Part shown: positions 17,895 to 27,724 of the stretch, in pieces
How positions within the stretch are numbered: the stretch's first letter is position 1
Layout: every line of letters begins with the position of its first letter
NCBI GenBank assembly: GCA_031761875.1
Contig: CP134492.1
Coordinates: forward strand, 1,922,001-1,986,000
Direction: 5' to 3'
From: Bacillaceae bacterium IKA-2
GTDB lineage: Bacteria > Bacillota > Bacilli > Bacillales > Anaerobacillaceae
DNA length: 64,000 nucleotides
Made by a program: the position numbers and the translations under genes
Notes under the pieces: generated by a model
Seen by the model: the letters and a program-made list of their open reading frames with translations, nothing else
Database searches by the model: none
What the model was told of the DNA's origin: nothing

Positions 17895-19922
17895 ATGAGT
17901 GTAAGTAAACGATTGTTTCAATATGCACTTAGTTTTAAAAAACCAATTTTAATAGCGTTAGTCTTGTTAACGGTTGCCGTCGCTGCCGAGTTAACAGGAC
18001 CGTTTATTGCTAAGAGAATGATTGATACTCATATATTAGGAGTAGAGTTTCCATGGTATGAAACGACGCCTAGTGAAGCTGCAGTCCAATTTCAAGACCG
18101 TTTTTTTATTAGAGAAGATCATCTTGAAGAACAGAAGTTGATAAAAGAGGTACGAATTTTACAAGTTAGTAGGAACTACTACTTCATTGATGAACAAATT
18201 TCCTTTGATGGGAAAAGGCAAATAATTGGAGATCAACTTTTGATTTCCAATCAGGACGAGGAAGTTAGTTATTCTGCCGAAAAGTTATCTAGCAAAGAAG
18301 CATTTGCCTTTTTTGAACCTGAAATCCCAAAATTATTTCAATTAATGTTCATTTATTTCGGATTAATTTGTATCGCCGCATTGTTACATTACGGGCAAAA
18401 ATATTTATTACAAGTGTCAGCAAATAAAATTATCCAAAAAATGCGTCTAGATGTATTTGCCCACATTCAAACGTTACCGGTAAGTTATTTTGACAGGCTG
18501 CCAGCGGGGAAAATAGTTTCAAGGGTTACAAATGATACCGAGGCAATCCGTGATCTGTATGTGACAGTCCTTGCGACATTTTTTACATCGGTTATTTACA
18601 TGGTAGGGATTTACATTGCGCTATTTTTATTAGATGCTAAACTAGCCTTGATTTGCTTAGTTTTAGTGCCGATTTTAATCGTTTGGGTAAAATTATACCG
18701 CGTTTATGCTTCAGAATATAATCACCGCATTCGTTCTGTTCTAAGTGAAATTAACGGGATGATTAACGAGTCAATTCAAGGGATCCGGATCATTCAGGCG
18801 TTTGGCAGAGAAAAGAAATCAAATTCTGAGTTTGAAAAACTTAACCAAGAACATTTCTCGTTTCAAAGTAAATTATTAAAATTAAATTCGTTAACTTCGC
18901 ACAATTTAGTCGGTGTCTTTCGTAACTTAGCTTTTGTAGCGTTAATTTGGTATTTTGGTGGTGCTTCGCTAGGGATAGGCTCAGTTATTTCACTTGGTGT
19001 TTTGTATGCCTTTGTTGACTACTTAAACCGCCTTTTTCAACCGATTTCCCAATTAGTAAATCAATTAGCACAACTAGAGCAAGCACGTGTTGCTGGAGAA
19101 CGTGTCTTTGAGTTATTAGATGAAACAGGAGAAGACGTTTCAAGGAAAGTGTTGCCGAGATATAAAGGAAATGTTCGCTTTGATGACGTTTCTTTTGCCT
19201 ACACAGACAATAACTATGTCCTTAAAAATATTTCTTTCGAGGCCAAACAAGGAGAAACAATCGCTTTAGTTGGTCATACTGGATCTGGAAAAAGTTCAAT
19301 TATGAATCTATTATTTCGTTTTTATGATCATAATCAAGGGAAAATTACCATTGATGGAATTGATATATTAAAAATATCAAAGCAAGAAATGAGGGAGCAT
19401 ATGGGAATTGTTCTCCAAGATCCATTCTTATTTACAGGAACAATTGCTTCAAATGTAAGCTTGAATGATCTAAGTATTACACGAGCTCAAGTGCAGAAGG
19501 CTATTCAAGATGTTGGTGCTGACATTTTATTTAATCGCTTAGAGAAGGGTTTAGATGAGCCTGTCCTTGAAAAAGGCAGCACACTTTCAGCAGGTGAGCG
19601 CCAACTTATTTCGTTTGCGAGGGCACTTGCCTTTAATCCAGCGATCTTAATTTTAGATGAAGCAACAGCAAGTGTTGATACAGAAACTGAAGTAATTATC
19701 CAATCTGCTTTGGAAGTATTGAAACAAGGTAGAACAACATTAATTATTGCTCACCGCTTATCGACAATTAAGAAAGCTGACCAAATCTTAGTACTTGATA
19801 GCGGAAAGATTGTCGAAAGAGGCAACCACCATCAACTCATGGAGCAAAAGGGAAAATACTATCAAATGTATCAACTTCAGCTAGGTCAAAATCTTGAGAA
19901 GATAAAGCGGAATGTGATATAA
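17895..19922 (+). CDS. bmrD: Multidrug ABC exporter half, BmrD (YheH)-like
   Basis: 675 residues, the partner of BmrC, with its ATG directly after the BmrC stop. Residues about 45-145 are an extra hydrophilic segment between TM1 and TM2, longer than in ordinary exporters; this matches the extracellular domain known from BmrD. The ATPase domain has Walker A GHTGSGKSS and a full Walker B with catalytic Glu589 (LDEATASVD), but the signature is altered to LSAGERQLIS. The active ATP site should therefore use BmrD Walker motifs with the BmrC signature. Confidence 0.9.
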   Translation: MSVSKRLFQYALSFKKPILIALVLLTVAVAAELTGPFIAKRMIDTHILGVEFPWYETTPSEAAVQFQDRFFIREDHLEEQKLIKEVRILQVSRNYYFIDEQISFDGKRQIIGDQLLISNQDEEVSYSAEKLSSKEAFAFFEPEIPKLFQLMFIYFGLICIAALLHYGQKYLLQVSANKIIQKMRLDVFAHIQTLPVSYFDRLPAGKIVSRVTNDTEAIRDLYVTVLATFFTSVIYMVGIYIALFLLDAKLALICLVLVPILIVWVKLYRVYASEYNHRIRSVLSEINGMINESIQGIRIIQAFGREKKSNSEFEKLNQEHFSFQSKLLKLNSLTSHNLVGVFRNLAFVALIWYFGGASLGIGSVISLGVLYAFVDYLNRLFQPISQLVNQLAQLEQARVAGERVFELLDETGEDVSRKVLPRYKGNVRFDDVSFAYTDNNYVLKNISFEAKQGETIALVGHTGSGKSSIMNLLFRFYDHNQGKITIDGIDILKISKQEMREHMGIVLQDPFLFTGTIASNVSLNDLSITRAQVQKAIQDVGADILFNRLEKGLDEPVLEKGSTLSAGERQLISFARALAFNPAILILDEATASVDTETEVIIQSALEVLKQGRTTLIIAHRLSTIKKADQILVLDSGKIVERGNHHQLMEQKGKYYQMYQLQLGQNLEKIKRNVI

Positions 19923-20025
19923 AGAGGTAGAGATATGTGGCAGTGTCAAAGTTAGGTGGTAACCTCTTGCTGCTTCGAATCAAACTTTAAATTCAAAATA
20001 AACTGTTGTAGAGGCGCTGAAAAAA

Positions 20026-20367
20026 ATGATTGAAGTTACAGAAGCAGAAATGAATAAGCTCCTAAGTGAAAAGAAGAAAAGTGTGATTATTTTTTATTGT
20101 TATACGCCTTTATGTGGAACGTGTAATCTAGCAAGGCAGATGTTAGAGGAGTGGCACCAAAGCAATTCAACGGCAACCATCTATTCTGTCAATCTTAATC
20201 TTAATCGAACACTCCCGTTAAAATGGCAAATAAAAAGTGTTCCATATGTCGCCATTGTATTAAACGGTGAAAAAGTTCATCAATTTTATGCAATTCATTC
20301 AATTGAAAACATTGACCGCCAGCTTACTCCATTTATCAGGAACGGAGAAAATGGCGATAAAGGATGA
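20026..20367 (+). CDS. yusE: YusE-like thioredoxin-fold protein
   Basis: 113 residues with a thioredoxin fold and the redox motif CGTC in YTPLCGTCNLARQML, plus the cis-proline loop SVPYVAI. The family position of the first cysteine pair and the short length match B. subtilis YusE, whose function is unproven. It follows bmrD by 103 bases and could be read from the same transcript. A terminator follows at 20390. The link with the YusF-like gene upstream recalls the yusE-yusF neighbourhood in B. subtilis, here split by bmrCD. Confidence 0.78.
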   Translation: MIEVTEAEMNKLLSEKKKSVIIFYCYTPLCGTCNLARQMLEEWHQSNSTATIYSVNLNLNRTLPLKWQIKSVPYVAIVLNGEKVHQFYAIHSIENIDRQLTPFIRNGENGDKG

Positions 20368-20389
20368 TTTGTTTCCATGTGAAAATATA

Positions 20390-20436
20390 TAAATAAGCCA
20401 CCTCGATAAATCATTTTATTAAGGGGGCTTATTTTA
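20390..20436 (+). terminator. Terminator after yusE
   Basis: AAATAAGCCACCT pairs with AGGGGGCTTATTT (one mismatch) and ends in TTTT. Confidence 0.7.
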
Positions 20437-20647
20437 ATGAAAGCAGCCAGCAGTATTAAGTTCTTAATAATTAGAGACGAGACACCCTGGCCGTAACAAA
20501 ATGAACAATTCCTACTATAAAATAACTAGTAGAAACAGTACTTATTATGGTAAGATATTCAAAAATATAGTTGGGAAAAGCTTCAGGATTAAACACTAGG
20601 TTAATACATTATTCATTGGGTAAGAGCCCTCAAAAGGAGACAAAAGC

Positions 20648-22264
20648 ATGAGTGGTGAAGTGAAAATATCTGCTGCCACTAGTAAATATGGAATGGTATC
20701 AACAGCCTCCAAACAAGCGACTGAAGCAGGCGTGAAAATGCTTGAGCTAGGTGGAAATGCTGTCGATGCTGCTGTTGCTGCTGCGTTATGTTTAGGAGTA
20801 ACTGAGCCACAAGCATCAGGGCTAGGCGGACAATCGATGGCGCTGCTTTATTTGCGAGAACAAAATCGTGTCTTTGTCTTAGATGGTTCCTCACGTGCAC
20901 CATTTACGATACAACCACACAAAAATCCACTAAATCCGTTAAAACTAGGAATACAATCGACAACAGTTCCATCGACCCCGGCAACGCTTGGATATATGCA
21001 AGAGAAATATGGAAAACTTGACTTTAGTCAAGTTTGTGCACCGGCAATTACTGCTGCTAAAGGTGGATTTGTCGTTTCGGCTTTACAGTATCGTTTATTA
21101 AAAAAAGAGAAAGATCATTTAAGACTAGATCCTTTAATTGAAAAAAATTTTTTTGATGATAACGAACCGATTCAAGCGGGAAAAACAATCAGGCAACCGG
21201 AACTAGCTGATTGTTTGACGACGATGGAGAAAAATGGCTGGCAAGACTTTTATCTTGGCACGATTGCAAAAAAAATAATCGCTGATATGGAGCATCGAGG
21301 CGGTCTAATCTCTGCTACTGATCTTTGCCAAATTCCTAATCCAGTTGAAAGAGAAGTCCTTGAAAGCAGCTATAGCGATTATACCATTTATACATTTCCA
21401 CCACCCGGCGCTGGTAGGGTGCTAGTGCAAATTTTAAATACATTAGAATGTTTTCCGCCTGAATTACTCGATCCTGAGGAGCCGATTGGAGCAGTCATTT
21501 TTTCGTTAGCATTTCGATTTGCATTAACGGATCGTCAAAGAATGCCAATTCACCCTGATTATTATTTACAAACAGTAAACAATCTAATGCAGAATAAACA
21601 ATATGCTGGTGAACTAGCGGGTAGAATTAAAGATATTGCTAAATTTACATTTCAAGATAAATATACACCGCCGCCGCATTCAGGTGAAACGACACATTTA
21701 TCCGTCATTGATCATGAAGGTAATGCAGTTGGAATTACCCAATCAATTGAGCTTGTTTTTGGTAGTAAAACGATGGCTCACGATCTTGGTTTCTTTTACA
21801 ATAATTACATGAGTGCATTTGAGTATAAAAATATGGCTCATCCATATTATTTATTACCAGGTGGAAAACCATGGAGTAGTGTTGCTCCGACGTTATTATT
21901 TAAAGACGGTTTTCCAAAATATTTATTAGGAAGTCCTGGTAGTGCTCGGATTTCAACGAGCCTTTCCCAAGTGATTTCAAGAATTGTTGACGGTGGACAA
22001 GATTTAGCAACAGCGATAGCTGCTCCTCGTTTTCATGCTTCTGATACAGGGCAGTTACAAATTGAAAAAAGCCGTTATAAACATGAAGTTATTGATGCGC
22101 TTAGCTTCATTGGCTTTGAGTTAAAAAAACGAAGTGCTTACAGTTTTTATTTAGGCTGTGTACAAGCTGTCGAAGTTTTGCAGCATGACCCACAAATATT
22201 TTTAGGAGTTGCTGACCCAAGGCGTGATGGGACGGCAAAAGGTCCTGATAAATCTATTAAATGA
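20648..22264 (+). CDS. Gamma-glutamyltransferase family protein (YwrD-like)
   Basis: 538 residues of the Ntn-hydrolase gamma-glutamyltransferase family. The precursor processes itself at a conserved Thr: here Thr348 in SGETTHLSVID. Other family motifs are GGNAVDAAVAAALCLGVTEPQASGLGGQ near the N-terminus and LGSPGSARI near residue 437. No signal peptide, so unlike secreted Ggt it is probably cytoplasmic, as B. subtilis YwrD. AAAAGGAG precedes the ATG. It is the first of three tightly spaced genes ending at a strong terminator, suggesting work on a gamma-glutamyl or N-acyl amino-acid compound. Confidence 0.88.
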   Translation: MSGEVKISAATSKYGMVSTASKQATEAGVKMLELGGNAVDAAVAAALCLGVTEPQASGLGGQSMALLYLREQNRVFVLDGSSRAPFTIQPHKNPLNPLKLGIQSTTVPSTPATLGYMQEKYGKLDFSQVCAPAITAAKGGFVVSALQYRLLKKEKDHLRLDPLIEKNFFDDNEPIQAGKTIRQPELADCLTTMEKNGWQDFYLGTIAKKIIADMEHRGGLISATDLCQIPNPVEREVLESSYSDYTIYTFPPPGAGRVLVQILNTLECFPPELLDPEEPIGAVIFSLAFRFALTDRQRMPIHPDYYLQTVNNLMQNKQYAGELAGRIKDIAKFTFQDKYTPPPHSGETTHLSVIDHEGNAVGITQSIELVFGSKTMAHDLGFFYNNYMSAFEYKNMAHPYYLLPGGKPWSSVAPTLLFKDGFPKYLLGSPGSARISTSLSQVISRIVDGGQDLATAIAAPRFHASDTGQLQIEKSRYKHEVIDALSFIGFELKKRSAYSFYLGCVQAVEVLQHDPQIFLGVADPRRDGTAKGPDKSIK

Positions 22265-22282
22265 CAAGGGGGCGTGTAGACT

Positions 22283-24427
22283 ATGAAAATCGCTATTGTT
22301 TATAACAGAGAAAGTAAGGCAGTAATTAATTTATTCGGGACGCTTAACCGTGAAAAATATGGTTTAGAAACGATAAAAAACATTAAAGATGCTTTAGTTG
22401 CCAGTGGACATCAAGTAAAAACGTTCGAAGGTGACAAAAATATCATTAAAAAATTAGAAGAATTTATGCCATCGGTTATTTCTGGTGAACGCCCAGGCTT
22501 AGTTTTTAATCTTAGTTATGGGATTCAAGGAAAAGGGAGATACATGCACGTACCTGGTATATTAGAAATGCTTGGAATCCCTTATGTCGGCTCTGGTCCA
22601 CAGACGCATGCAATGGCCTTAGATAAAATTGTCACGAAAATGATTTTAATTCAAAAAGGCTTACCGACACCGAAATTTGCGGTCATGGATAAACCTGATT
22701 CGCCTATAAAAGAAATTTTAACCTATCCGTTAATTGTTAAGCCGAAAGATGAAGCTGTTTCGTTTGGATTAAAAATTGTTCATAATGAGGCTGAACTTCG
22801 CGAGGGAGTTCGTGGCATTTATGAAGCTTTTCAAACGCCAACGCTCGTTGAAGAGTATATTGAAGGTCGAGAAGTTAACGTCGGTTTACTTGGCAACAAT
22901 CCTCCTGTGGCGCTTCCACCAGTTGAACTCATTTTTGGAGATGGCCCGCAAATATACACCTATGAAGATAAAAAAAACCTAAGTGGTCGAAAAGTAGGGA
23001 AAGTTTGTCCAGCAGCACTTTCAGAAGAACAAACGAAAAAAGTCCAACAACTGGCGATTGATACGTTTAATGCAATTGATTGTTATGATAGCGCTAGAGT
23101 TGACTTTCGAATCGATAAGGACGGAAATCCCTACATATTAGAAGTCAATTCAATGGCAAGTTTAGGAGCTGATGGATCTTTTGTTTTTGCCGCAGAAAAA
23201 ATAGGTCTAGATTACGTAAAATTAATGAATCGGCTTATTGAAGTAGCCTGTGAACGTTATTTTGGCCCGCATTTGATTAATAGTATTAGCAATGATGCAT
23301 CAGAAGAAGCGTTACAACTTTTTAATAAAATTACTGGAAATCGTGACAAAGTTGAAGCCGAATTAAAAGTTTGGACAAACTTACCAAGTTGGACAGAAGA
23401 CCCAGTTGGCTTAAGTACAGTTATTAGAAAGCTTGAAGAACGTTGTAAAAAGCTAGGTTTAAGAGTTGTAGATCAGTATACAAATGGGAGATCCGCTTGG
23501 ACATATGAAACAAAGGCTGGCTTTAAAGATGGAACATTACTAGTGTTGCCGATTGATATTCCGGGTAATCGACGCGGTTTTCCAATTCCATTTCGGAAAG
23601 AGGAAGAATGGGTGTACGGAGAAGGGATCGCTTCGAGTCGTGGTGGCTTAGTAACAATATTAAGTGCTTTTACAGCTTTAAAAGAACTTAAATTATTAGG
23701 TGAGAAAAATATCGGATTATTTTTCTATGCTGATGAGGGACGCGGAATGCGTTACAGTAGTCCAACGTTACGTGAAGCTGCCAAAGAAGCAAAACAAGTC
23801 ATTGTCATGCAACCTGGTTTTACAGGTGGAAGAGTAGCAGACCAACGCCGTGGTTCGAAAAAATATAGTGTAATTGTTGAAGGGGATCCTTTAAGAGTTG
23901 GAAATCTTTCAAAGCAACTAGATGTACTGAGTTATTTCATCCAACAAGCAGAAAAACTAAAAAAAATTGGTAGTCCAGATAAGAAATTAACAGTTGCAGT
24001 GCAAGATGTTCAATCCGATCGTTACAGTGTCTTATTACCACATCGAGTACATGCAACCGTATATGTTACGTATCTTGATGAGAAGCTCGCTGCTGATGCT
24101 GAAAAGCAATTACGAGAAATTTTTAAAGCAAACTTAAAAGGAATGCAAACGTATATTGAAAAATTGGTTGAACGACCACCATTAGTAAGAAAGAAAAAAA
24201 ATCCGTTAATTCAGCAACTTAGTAAAATAAGTGAACAATGGAACGTACCATTTGGAACAGAATCAAGCTTGTTAGCGACAGCGGCTGGTGAAATTAAAAA
24301 TCATATCCCGGTTATTTGTGGCTTTGCACCAGCCAGTAAAGATTTATATACACCTAATGAAGCCATTCATCGCCAAGAGCTGATTCAACGGTCATTACTT
24401 TTAGCAATGTTTTTGTTAGAGCAGTAA
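22283..24427 (+). CDS. ATP-grasp ligase fused to a degenerate M20 peptidase-like domain
   Basis: 714 residues. Residues 1-335 are a D-Ala-D-Ala-ligase-type ATP-grasp domain: EMLGIPYVGSGPQTHAMALDK, PLIVKPKDEAVSFG, the YDSARVDFRID and PYILEVNSMASL metal/ATP sites. Residues about 345-714 resemble an M20 aminoacylase/carboxypeptidase fold, but the metal ligands look lost: the usual H-x-D reads PID (VLPIDIPG), the second Asp is Ser in GEGIASSRGG, and the Glu-Glu pair is altered (YADEGRGM). I infer an amide or peptide ligase with a non-catalytic peptidase-like half that may bind substrate. The partner genes on each side overlap this in theme. GGGGGCG precedes the ATG. Confidence 0.78.
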   Translation: MKIAIVYNRESKAVINLFGTLNREKYGLETIKNIKDALVASGHQVKTFEGDKNIIKKLEEFMPSVISGERPGLVFNLSYGIQGKGRYMHVPGILEMLGIPYVGSGPQTHAMALDKIVTKMILIQKGLPTPKFAVMDKPDSPIKEILTYPLIVKPKDEAVSFGLKIVHNEAELREGVRGIYEAFQTPTLVEEYIEGREVNVGLLGNNPPVALPPVELIFGDGPQIYTYEDKKNLSGRKVGKVCPAALSEEQTKKVQQLAIDTFNAIDCYDSARVDFRIDKDGNPYILEVNSMASLGADGSFVFAAEKIGLDYVKLMNRLIEVACERYFGPHLINSISNDASEEALQLFNKITGNRDKVEAELKVWTNLPSWTEDPVGLSTVIRKLEERCKKLGLRVVDQYTNGRSAWTYETKAGFKDGTLLVLPIDIPGNRRGFPIPFRKEEEWVYGEGIASSRGGLVTILSAFTALKELKLLGEKNIGLFFYADEGRGMRYSSPTLREAAKEAKQVIVMQPGFTGGRVADQRRGSKKYSVIVEGDPLRVGNLSKQLDVLSYFIQQAEKLKKIGSPDKKLTVAVQDVQSDRYSVLLPHRVHATVYVTYLDEKLAADAEKQLREIFKANLKGMQTYIEKLVERPPLVRKKKNPLIQQLSKISEQWNVPFGTESSLLATAAGEIKNHIPVICGFAPASKDLYTPNEAIHRQELIQRSLLLAMFLLEQ

Positions 24428-24429
24428 CA

Positions 24430-25275
24430 GTGAAGAGCATAGAGCGGAAATTACCGATTGTTATTTCTGTCCCACATGGTGGATTGACTATTCCGAAAGA
24501 GCTTGCTGCTAAATTTTTATTAACAACAGAAGAAGTATTGTTTGATTGTGATACGTGGGAGCGCCAACTTTACAATTTTAAAAACGATGTAGAAGAGTAT
24601 GTTGATACCGATATTTCACGACTTGTCATTGATATGAACCGTGCGGAAAATGATTTGCCACCTGAAAACCCTGATGGCGTTGTAAAACTGTTATCAGTTG
24701 CAAAAAAACGAGTTTGGATCTATTCAGAAGGACTTTCTCAAACCGAAATAGCTACTTTAATGAAAAGGTATTATCATCCATATCAGAAAAGGTTAGTGGA
24801 AGCCTCGAAAAATAAAAAAGTAATTTTAGGCTTAGATTGTCATACAATGTTAGATGTTGGCCCCACTCCAAACAGTATAGAATGGAAAAAGCGACCATTG
24901 TTTTGTATCGGGAATCGCGGCTCGTTAACAGGTGAACAATTGAACGAAGCAATTACAGCACCAACGCAATTAATGATTAAGTTTAAACAGTTGTTAGAAA
25001 ACAAGTTTGCCGTGTTTATAGAGAAAAAGATCGAAGTACCAATGGTGACGATTAATCAACCATTTGCAGGTGGCTATATTACAAAATTTCATGGTAATCA
25101 AGGGAATATCCCTTGGATCCAATTAGAAATCAATCGTTGCTTATATTTACCGAGTAATACCAAGTTAACAACACTTCCGAATCAGCAGAGTCAGACTAAA
25201 TTAACAGAAGTAAAAAATCTATTGTACGAAACATTTACTGAATTAATTATCTGGTGGAAAACTCACCAATGTTAA
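24430..25275 (+). CDS. N-formylglutamate amidohydrolase family protein
   Basis: 281 residues of the FGase (HutG-type) family, Zn-dependent amidases that free amino acids from N-formyl or similar groups. Visible motifs are VISVPHGGLTIP at the start, FDCDTWERQLYNF, LVIDMNRAEND, the metal-site LGLDCHTMLDVGP and EINRCLYLP near the end. The start is GTG at 24430, two bases after the upstream stop with no good ribosome site, so it is probably coupled to that gene. Together with the transferase and ligase it suggests making or clearing an N-acylated or gamma-glutamylated amino acid. The substrate is unknown. Confidence 0.82.
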   Translation: MKSIERKLPIVISVPHGGLTIPKELAAKFLLTTEEVLFDCDTWERQLYNFKNDVEEYVDTDISRLVIDMNRAENDLPPENPDGVVKLLSVAKKRVWIYSEGLSQTEIATLMKRYYHPYQKRLVEASKNKKVILGLDCHTMLDVGPTPNSIEWKKRPLFCIGNRGSLTGEQLNEAITAPTQLMIKFKQLLENKFAVFIEKKIEVPMVTINQPFAGGYITKFHGNQGNIPWIQLEINRCLYLPSNTKLTTLPNQQSQTKLTEVKNLLYETFTELIIWWKTHQC

Positions 25276-25320
25276 TAAAGAGGCAGCTCACTTGTGAGCT
25301 GCCTCTTTATTAACATTGGT
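25265..25320 (+). terminator. Perfect 26-bp stem terminator of the ggt cluster
   Basis: Arms 25265-25290 and 25295-25320 are fully complementary with loop CTTG. The left arm includes the stop codon of the amidohydrolase gene. The inner GC-rich part followed by CTCTTTATT gives a classic intrinsic terminator that also works on the other strand. Confidence 0.9.
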
Positions 25321-25392
25321 AAAAATTAAGTTGTATTAATTAATTGTTGGGAAAAGCTATTTTTGTACACATATAGAAGGAGGCATTTAACT

Positions 25393-26490
25393 ATGTTTAA
25401 AAAAGTATTTAAAAATGTAAGCAAACTTCACAATCGAAAATTATATTTTATCTTAGTGCTGATATTGTTGATTTCAACTCAAGTTCATGCCAACGAATCA
25501 AGGCTAATGGAAGCACAAATAAATATTGATGACAAGCCAATAAATACTAGATATATCATCAGAGAAGGGCATTTACTTGTGCCAGCAATATTTTTAAAAA
25601 ATACGGGTACCTATGTGGACTGGAATGATGAGTACCGCTCGGTTGTTTTTAAAACGAAAGATAAAATGTTTGCGCTGCCAGTAGGGAAGGCATATTCAGA
25701 TGATTTCAATAGAGCAACTAGTAAATGGGTCCGGAATCCTCTTGCAACAGAGACATTGGATTATCGTGGTGAACCATTTGTCCCTTTGATTGATGTTGCA
25801 AAAAAATTAGGGATGGGGGTTAGGTATGACACTGAAACAGCTAGAACCTTTATAACTTCTAACATTTCAATTAAGCCTAATCGGATATCAAAACTCCAAA
25901 CTTCTGAAAAGCTTGTTGCCTTAACTTTTGACGATGGACCAGAAGATTATTATACACCAATAATTTTAGATATTCTTAAGGAAAAAGGAGTGCCAGCAAC
26001 CTTCTTTGTTGTTGGTAGACAAATATCATTCTTTCCGGATATGATGAAACGGATTGTTGCAGAAGGGCATGGAATTGGAAACCACACATGGCATCATCCA
26101 GATCTTAAAAATGAATGGACATCTAAAGTAAGATCAGAAATTCAATCAACACAACAAGAAATACAAAAAGTCGTTGGGAGAAAACCTGATTTGTTTCGTC
26201 CGCCGTTCGGTGCTTTTACTAAAGCAGATCTAGCTCTTTTAAATGAACTTGGAATGAGGAATATATTGTGGTCAGTAGATACACTTGATTGGAGCGGGTT
26301 ATCCGCAGATGCAATCATGCATTTAGTCGATCAACAAATTTCTCCCGGAGGAATTATTTTACAGCATAATTTCCAGTACAATCGAGGACTCCTAGATGGT
26401 ACTGTTGAAGCTTTGCCAAGAATCATTGATGATTTACAGAAGCAAGGGTATAAATTTGTAACTGTACAGACCTTATTGGATCATAAATAA
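25393..26490 (+). CDS. Secreted polysaccharide deacetylase with stalk domain
   Basis: 365 residues. The ATG at 25393 has AGAAGGAGG upstream; the frame extends to 25363 but without support. Order: signal peptide (about 1-36), a copper-amine-oxidase-N-like or stalk domain (about 40-165, GHLLVPAIFLKNTG and GEPFVPLIDVAKKLG), and a NodB deacetylase domain (170-360). The five NodB motifs are present: TFDDGP, HTWHHP, RPPFGAF, DTLDW and ILQHN. Likely substrate is peptidoglycan or another wall glycan in the cell envelope or spore. It stands alone between two terminators. Confidence 0.9.
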   Translation: MFKKVFKNVSKLHNRKLYFILVLILLISTQVHANESRLMEAQINIDDKPINTRYIIREGHLLVPAIFLKNTGTYVDWNDEYRSVVFKTKDKMFALPVGKAYSDDFNRATSKWVRNPLATETLDYRGEPFVPLIDVAKKLGMGVRYDTETARTFITSNISIKPNRISKLQTSEKLVALTFDDGPEDYYTPIILDILKEKGVPATFFVVGRQISFFPDMMKRIVAEGHGIGNHTWHHPDLKNEWTSKVRSEIQSTQQEIQKVVGRKPDLFRPPFGAFTKADLALLNELGMRNILWSVDTLDWSGLSADAIMHLVDQQISPGGIILQHNFQYNRGLLDGTVEALPRIIDDLQKQGYKFVTVQTLLDHK

Positions 26491-26693: not shown

Positions 26694-27584
26694 TTATTTA
26701 TTTTTGAAAAAACGATCGCGGACCCTTTTCATACGGTCCCGGTACTTTAAGATATCGACCCTTGCAGCCTCAGCTTCAGGTGCGACTGGTCTTAAATTTT
26801 CGATATTCCAATAGTCGATAATGACTTCAAGAACCTGGTCAAAATATTCTAATGGACCATAATTCGCTTCTTTAGCAATGATTGCCATTCGATCATTAAA
26901 ATCAGGCATGACAGCGCCCGGCATTTCAAAGTTACGAATTACATGAGCAAGATAATAACAATAATTCGGTTCTAATTCAAGATGAAATTTAATGACATCA
27001 CGGTAAAAAGCATAATGTAGTGTTTCATCTTTTGATAAGCGCAGCAAAAGGTTGGACAATTCAGAGTCATGCGGTCTGGCTATTTTAGCAACATTTGTAT
27101 AAAAGGCCATTGTTGCAAGCTCCTGCATAGAGGTATAAACCATCGTTTCAAAAGGTGTCGTATAGTCCGGGCTATAACCGCTCTCAACGGTTTGTTTACG
27201 TAGTTGATGAATACGCATTGGGTCAACACTTCGTGTGATTAAAAGATATGTTTCGAGTAAGTTGGAATGCTGGTCTTCTTCAGCGGTCCATGTATGAACA
27301 AAATCTCGCATAACTGTTAACGAACCTTTAAAAGTTTGATCCAAATGTGAAGTAAACCAGGGAAGATTAACTTCTGTCAAAAGGGCAGTCTCCACGGCAG
27401 TTACAATGTTTGCAGGCAAGGTAACTTGATCTTTGTTCCAAGGTACTCTCCGGAAATCTTGAGCCTTGTCCCAAGGTAAAAATTCATGATACCCCCAATC
27501 TATTTTCTCTGAACGTTTTTTATGTTCCACATATAGTTCGCGGATCTGGGGTTCTAACCTAAAATCCAAATGATTTGTAAGCAA
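26694..27584 (-). CDS. Acyl-ACP desaturase (stearoyl-ACP desaturase family)
   Basis: 296 residues of the soluble di-iron desaturase family. The iron ligands sit in two E-x-x-H motifs: TAEEDQHSNLLETY near residue 105 and SKDETLHYAFY near 185. It introduces double bonds into acyl chains on ACP or CoA, so it may adjust membrane fluidity. The start is TTG at 27584, placed by AAAGGAGGT seven bases upstream; the frame continues to 27608 without a site. A perfect inverted repeat lies 141 bases upstream at 27725-27757. Soluble desaturases of this kind are less common in Bacillaceae than membrane-bound Des. Confidence 0.87.
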   Translation of the reverse strand: MLTNHLDFRLEPQIRELYVEHKKRSEKIDWGYHEFLPWDKAQDFRRVPWNKDQVTLPANIVTAVETALLTEVNLPWFTSHLDQTFKGSLTVMRDFVHTWTAEEDQHSNLLETYLLITRSVDPMRIHQLRKQTVESGYSPDYTTPFETMVYTSMQELATMAFYTNVAKIARPHDSELSNLLLRLSKDETLHYAFYRDVIKFHLELEPNYCYYLAHVIRNFEMPGAVMPDFNDRMAIIAKEANYGPLEYFDQVLEVIIDYWNIENLRPVAPEAEAARVDILKYRDRMKRVRDRFFKNK

Positions 27585-27724
27585 GAGATTACCTCCTTTT
27601 AATAACAATACAAATTGTTAATTTGTTGTTTTTTTCTTTTATTCAAAAACTATTTTACCCAAATATCTGTTTGGTAATACTGCTTCCATTCCAATGCATG
27701 TACTTGTTTCATATATATTCTATC

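Follow-up and report, generated by a model that had tools for sequence, protein, structure and literature searches.

A conserved gene set joining two proteins of hydrolase families to an ATP-grasp protein with an M20 domain devoid of its metal ligands in Bacillaceae bacterium IKA-2

Gene layout and family assignments

The window, i.e. the whole stretch of DNA that was analysed, comprises 64 kb of the 4.42-Mb single-contig genome of Bacillaceae bacterium IKA-2. Three co-oriented genes on its forward strand (Table 1) encode a GGT-family protein, a fusion of a Ddl-type ATP-grasp ligase half to an M20-fold half, termed AGM20, and an FGase-family protein. A preliminary description of this DNA had called the genes tightly spaced, as they are: the intergenic gaps are 18 nt (GGT/AGM20) and 2 nt (AGM20/FGase). 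The set is followed by a hairpin (dG -43.5 kcal/mol, z -11.5) whose 5' arm takes in the final FGase codons, stop codon included. Previously reported as a perfect 26-bp terminator, the stem is indeed perfect, with a length of 27 bp; since it has no T-run on its 3' side and is absent from the terminator scan, it is graded a probable terminator of non-canonical form. A thioredoxin-like gene (20026-20367) lies upstream, its end separated from the GGT gene by 280 nt. Directly 3' of the hairpin lies a polysaccharide deacetylase gene with a Cu_amine_oxidN1 domain (25363-26490, + strand), and a fatty acid desaturase type 2 gene of the acyl-ACP desaturase family (166 bits; 26694-27608, - strand) also adjoins the cluster. 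An Rfam search of 19900-25600 gave no match, a promoter scan stayed at or below chance level, and no hut genes adjoin the FGase gene.

Table 1. Features of the three-gene locus, in window coordinates
Feature	Position	Strand	Basis
GGT-family Ntn hydrolase, 538 aa	20648-22264	+	ORF + Pfam
AGM20 (ligase-M20 fusion), 714 aa	22283-24427	+	ORF + Pfam
AGM20 residues 1-325, Ddl-type ATP-grasp ligase half	22283-23257	+	Pfam, alignment
AGM20 residues 340-714, M20-fold pseudoenzyme half, CPG2 type (stop codon included)	23300-24427	+	
AGM20 span of the vanished two-metal site, P423 to Y689	23549-24349	+	alignment to CPG2
FGase-family (PF05013) amidohydrolase, 281 aa, GTG start	24430-25275	+	ORF + Pfam
Perfect inverted repeat, 27 bp, 2-nt loop; probable terminator	25265-25320	+	folding

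None of the three proteins reaches the NCBIfam equivalog or subfamily cut-off of its namesake enzyme. The GGT-family protein matches G_glu_transpept (PF01019) at 388 bits, above the curated Pfam cut-off, and scores 340.3 bits against the TIGR00066 equivalog cut-off of 357.85. In common with the E. coli and B. subtilis enzymes it has the Ntn fold, the self-processing threonine (T349, in TTHLS) and the serine pair S462/S463 (window S410/S411). It differs from them in its sub-cut-off TIGR00066 score, in the absence of any signal-peptide-like stretch at its N-terminus and in its ligands for the gamma-glutamyl group. E. coli R114, Q430 and D433, the residues that hold this group, are replaced by S, Y and A (window S81, Y387 and A390) in 17 of 17 AGM20-linked sequences, and G484 is replaced by S throughout the AGM20-linked clade (window S432). 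The most fitting description of the protein is an Ntn amidohydrolase or transferase of the cytoplasm whose acyl pocket differs. T349 and the N-terminus are in line with the earlier view of a self-processing, cytoplasmic enzyme; the designation gamma-glutamyl is not supported, given the uniform replacement of the binding residues and the score under the equivalog cut-off.

The third protein matches FGase (PF05013) at 135.7 bits against a cut-off of 28.9. Its motifs SVPHGG, DCH, GGYIT..H and WIQLE are intact, and the family motifs are kept in 14 aligned sequences. Although it is a homologue of N-formylglutamate amidohydrolase in this sense, as first proposed, identity with N-formylglutamate deformylase finds no support, the score of 75.9 bits falling far below the HutG TIGR02017 cut-off of 278.75.

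The first half of AGM20 matches Dala_Dala_lig_C at 129 bits (residues 124-320), above the curated Pfam cut-off, which together with the Peptidase_M20 match of the second half agrees with the original reading of a D-Ala-D-Ala-ligase-type enzyme fused to an M20-like half. The Ddl/Van ligases are the best solved relatives of the ligase half and share its fold and catalytic core; AGM20 nevertheless falls below all Ddl/Van models shown (best 177.6 bits vs a cut-off of 243). K115, K119, K153, E190, E197, R272, D274, E287 and N289, the ATP/Mg and catalytic residues, are invariant in 34 aligned sequences, and ATP-dependent ligation is therefore expected. A role as the cell-wall Ddl enzyme is unlikely because a second Ddl homologue is found in the same genome at 1.22 Mb. 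Nor is D-alanine predicted as a substrate, since the residues that stand opposite DdlB E15 and Y216 in a by-eye alignment are changed to A13 and K231.

Conservation and loss of the metal site in the M20 half

The M20 half matches Peptidase_M20 at 41.7 bits against a Pfam cut-off of 24.6 (residues 429-711). An AF2 model of residues 330-714, built with 21 sequences, has a mean pLDDT of 90 and a pTM of 0.87, and its best PDB matches are carboxypeptidase G2 (CPG2) structures (TM 0.75-0.77); CPG2 (M20A; 1cg2) is also the closest solved sequence relative (hmmsearch E 4.5e-18). The structural argument rests on this separate model, the ATP-grasp half of the full-length AF2 model having a mean pLDDT of 66. 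Structure prediction of this half, which had been suggested as a check, thus gives a confident M20 fold, with its catalytic and dimerisation domains, and the ligand residues are absent from it by alignment.

Ligand positions were taken from a profile alignment to 1cg2 and from an alignment of 34 sequences of Bacillota and Planctomycetota; the H385 position comes from a motif alignment, the profile match stopping short of it. In the window protein all five CPG2 ligands are replaced: H112 by P423 (PID), D141 by S451 (ASSRGG), E176 by G486 (DEGRG), E200 by Q510 and H385 by Y689. The first three of these losses had been correctly recognised from the sequence; the last two are additional. D141, E176 and E200 are gone in all 34 sequences, H112 is retained only in Planctomycetota and in one member (L116) of a distant subfamily II (L115-L117), and Y or F predominates at the H385 position, where a few sequences have H. 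Subfamily II has E in place of D141, T or W in place of E176, and Q or K in place of E200. A search for an active ancestor among the 34 sequences, subfamily II included, found no intact two-metal site; such a site, in structural models and together with a known aminoacylase function, was what the preliminary description had named as able to overturn its reading. CPG2 H229 and N275 are likewise replaced in the window protein, which differs from CPG2 also in its fusion to a ligase.

What is conserved in the M20 half clusters at and around the former metal site. D425 is present in all 34 sequences; R453, E485, G486, R523 and H587 are conserved in the main AGM20 clade, and S452, R487 and R538 nearly so. 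R631 is invariant in all 34 and is shared with CPG2, where it corresponds by alignment to R324 of the lid domain (a number obtained by counting back from H385). The dN/dS of the M20 half is 0.07 between the window and an Anaerobacillus MAG (L007) and 0.03-0.14 in other pairs with estimable dS, many dS values being saturated in these comparisons. The M20 half evolves faster than the ligase half, and it is under purifying selection rather than decaying.

Since the human CN1 metal-binding mutants H133A, D166A and E201A are devoid of activity (PMC6271292) and the corresponding type of ligand has been lost from AGM20, two-metal hydrolysis by the M20 half is not expected. In M20 enzymes, CPG2 R324, PepV R350 and PepD R369 have been implicated as residues to which the C-terminus of the substrate binds (PMC6271292). 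The M20 half is an old, conserved pseudoenzyme, most likely serving as a binding domain for the ligase, and it would bind a free carboxylate rather than catalyse.

Distribution, co-occurrence and the wider ligase family

Carriers of AGM20 are scattered among bacteria, and many of the named ones are alkali-loving. Full or nearly full AGM20 genes were found in seven of 150 relatives (own genome included), in seven of 343 Planctomycetota genomes (one copy cut by a contig end), in three of 341 genomes from the class to which Alkaliphilus belongs and in 11 of 398 Bacillota genomes, where a few further copies were incomplete or more divergent. The nearest named relative is that of the Anaerobacillus MAG, at 89% identity. 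In this MAG (L007/L134; L007:1046-3625) the GGT is a C-terminal remnant and the FGase consists of the first 62 residues, with AGM20 intact, which could reflect gene decay or misassembly. Three genomes of the same genus have the upstream ABC transporter and no module at that site. In the tree the window AGM20 groups with Alkaliphilus (support 96/83), a placement indicative of exchange between Bacilli and Clostridia.

The order GGT-AGM20-FGase is found in Evansella, Alkalihalobacterium and Salipaludibacillus. Planctomycetota have AGM20-GGT-FGase, so that adjacency is kept despite rearrangement, and in one genome (G880) GGT-FGase lies opposite a subfamily II AGM20. The GGT clade, taken at an identity of at least 59%, occurs in six of the 150 genomes, each of which carries AGM20, and never without it (Fisher p ~5e-10, relatedness not being corrected for). 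Of 34 genomes that carry the ligase, 16 have both GGT and FGase, 14 have neither and four have just one of the two. In Alkaliphilus, as in many other Bacillota, AGM20 stands without either partner, and some genomes have FGase at a separate locus. The same set recurs in Bacillota and Planctomycetota, which is more than chance would give; the three genes are a functional set that has been conserved. A search for it in other genomes had been proposed at the outset, scattered genes being considered a refutation: adjacency does recur and GGT travels with FGase, although AGM20 is often on its own and FGase is sometimes elsewhere.

The ligase half has a wider family. Relatives that lack the M20 half and are 39-44% identical occur on rhizobial plasmids, and in the tree the rhizobial forms, together with forms associated with 7TM_transglut, group with subfamily II AGM20 (97/90). 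One Bradyrhizobium plasmid (NZ_CP088281, L069:5282-10047) has in a row genes for a KamA-like radical SAM protein, a GGT (37%), 7TM_transglut and the ATP-grasp protein, and partial versions of this row are found on other rhizobial plasmids (L070, L071, L074). In a planctomycete (G172, L060:7521-9968) a single protein combines 7TM_transglut with the same ATP-grasp domain, and in Planctomycetota L135:8561-15255 and L138:5767-8072 GGT paralogues lie near 7TM_transglut, with a KamA-like gene in the former. A ligase half by itself, 60% identical, is also found nested within the AGM20 tree on a long branch (L114:7994-8986, genome G1180). Since the rhizobial and 7TM forms join subfamily II and L114 nests inside AGM20, repeated loss of the M20 half is probable, and the dead domain seems dispensable at least in the L114 lineage. 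CapA-like genes neighbour both the AGM20 of L007 and an ATP-grasp gene of rhizobia; this was dropped as a coincidence.

In Clostridia, standalone ATP-grasp relatives (L048, L050, L051) are directly followed by lysine 2,3-aminomutase genes, two of whose products score 545 and 556 bits against the TIGR03820 cut-off of 525 and the third 497. These gene pairs are possible beta-lysine ligase pairs. Because ligase-half relatives adjoin 2,3-aminomutase genes, there are hints of beta-amino acids or their peptides as substrates in the wider ligase family. No aminomutase was found linked to a module of the window type, and the AGM20 lineage has no conserved precursor-supplying neighbour beyond the three genes. 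A one-module NRPS gene (C-A-PCP-TE) lies 3' of GGT-AGM20 in one genome (L105:9146-13042, G1117).

A proposed ligase and hydrolase module

Two known systems offer precedents. The Rlo system of Pseudomonas aeruginosa consists of the retropepsin RloA, the inactive transglutaminase-7TM protein RloB and the ATP-grasp protein RloC, the last compared with RimK at 24% identity (PMC12239564). Like the window module it combines an ATP-grasp protein, a dead enzyme domain and a hydrolase, and in Bradyrhizobium and a planctomycete, relatives of the AGM20 ligase half lie next to 7TM_transglut or share one protein with it. It differs in that RloC is likened to RimK whereas AGM20 is Ddl-type, and in having a membrane component and a secreted aspartic peptidase; among the flanking genes scanned neither an RloB-type 7TM_transglut nor a retropepsin partner was found, 7TM proteins occurring only with distant relatives. 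In the LysX/LysK/LysW system an ATP-grasp ligase likewise has an M20-family partner, LysK being homologous to ArgE/DapE (PMC10433800). LysK, however, is active and separate from LysX, LysW serves as a carrier, and LysX is not Ddl-type; in the neighbourhood of the module no LysW-type carrier gene was seen. The window module belongs to neither system and extends the range of ATP-grasp amidoligase modules.

The explanation we favour, with a probability of roughly one half, is that AGM20 is a ligase for a small amide or peptide, with a dead binding domain, and that the two hydrolases act on the same product. The computations establish the gene set, the dead metal site, the selection on it, the co-occurrence and the intact catalytic residues at the other three active sites; we infer the ligation reaction, what the dead domain does and which way both hydrolases work. 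The ATP-grasp half would convert a carboxylate to an acyl phosphate, which then reacts with the amine of an acceptor resembling an amino acid. The M20 half, derived from a CPG2-type hydrolase whose metal site was permanently lost, would use R631 to bind the carboxylate of an amino acid or N-acyl-amino acid, and may present the acceptor, hold or sense the product, or keep AGM20 dimeric. The GGT-type Ntn hydrolase, with its non-gamma-glutamyl pocket, and the FGase metallo-amidohydrolase, both with intact catalytic residues as in the ligase site, would cleave or remodel the AGM20 product in the cytoplasm where they are present, giving a make-and-break pair around a single metabolite. A make-and-break set had already been suggested, and as a conserved set it is plausible; it is not obligatory, and because AGM20 often occurs without GGT and FGase the ligase product would have a use of its own.

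A pathway for biosynthesis only, in which the three enzymes act in sequence on a small peptide or N-acyl compound (an osmolyte, metallophore or antibiotic-like molecule) with no turnover cycle, GGT serving as a transferase or remover of a protecting group and FGase as a deacylase, is a lesser possibility that deserves to be kept in mind. It is favoured by the ATP-grasp relatives in plasmid clusters resembling small-molecule pathways (KamA-like, panD, ectB, more ATP-grasp ligases and efflux), by the clostridial relatives that sit before lysine 2,3-aminomutase and by the NRPS-like gene after one relative. However, the window-type module has no accompanying precursor or export gene, AGM20 persists without GGT and FGase, and both partners come from hydrolase families.

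That AGM20 instead modifies a protein or carrier with amino acids, in the manner of RimK and LysX, and that the hydrolases trim or remove them, is improbable despite the known ligase/hydrolase pairs acting on proteins, LysX/LysK (PMC10433800) and RimK/RimB (PMC12239564). The ligase half is Ddl-type, and known Ddl-type members use free amino acids; small molecules are the substrates of both the GGT and the FGase family, and a gene for a carrier protein adjoining the module was not seen.

Slightly less credit still is due to a living M20 half, with a metal-free or altered activity in the same pocket (D425, S452, R453, D484, E485, R487, R523, H587), by which AGM20 itself would make and break or transfer. 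The dense array of invariant or near-invariant non-ligand residues in the main clade would fit such an activity, but there is variation at ligand positions 451, 510 and 689, and subfamily II departs at several conserved positions, which fits a binding role better than a single shared chemistry; nor is a metal-independent M20 enzyme known to us. Least likely is a loose scavenging operon of three broad amide-active enzymes, assembled by chance or for nitrogen salvage with no common substrate, since, for all that AGM20 is often alone and FGase unlinked in some genomes, a distinct GGT clade strictly co-occurs with AGM20, adjacency recurs across phyla in different orders, and GGT and FGase are jointly present or absent.

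No described pathway of this composition was known to the preliminary description, and the literature searched (covering the three-gene combination, ATP-grasp proteins together with GGT or an aminomutase, and pseudo-M20 proteins, the amidoligase survey of Iyer et al. 2009 lying outside its scope) likewise yielded none. An apparent M20 match in a paper on the E-64 pathway was dropped, "M20" there being part of the name of a plate reader. On a fuller but tentative reading, to which we give somewhat less than an even chance, the module constitutes an undescribed metabolic cycle around a small amide or peptide, in which the product of a ligase with a repurposed, binding or allosteric M20 domain is broken down by a new non-gamma-glutamyl GGT clade and a new FGase subfamily, the genes having been passed horizontally between alkaliphilic Bacilli and Clostridia and occurring also in Planctomycetota.

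For the annotation of carrier genomes, the names GGT and N-formylglutamate amidohydrolase are over-confident and "M20 metallo-hydrolase" is false; the AGM20-linked clade separates mis-named "gamma-glutamyltransferases" that would have a different acyl pocket. AGM20 offers a clear, testable case of a hydrolase fold that apparently found new use as the non-catalytic portion of a ligase and is conserved across phyla. The module points to a so far overlooked metabolite; should its product be an osmolyte or a peptide for life at high pH, the interest would be physiological as well.
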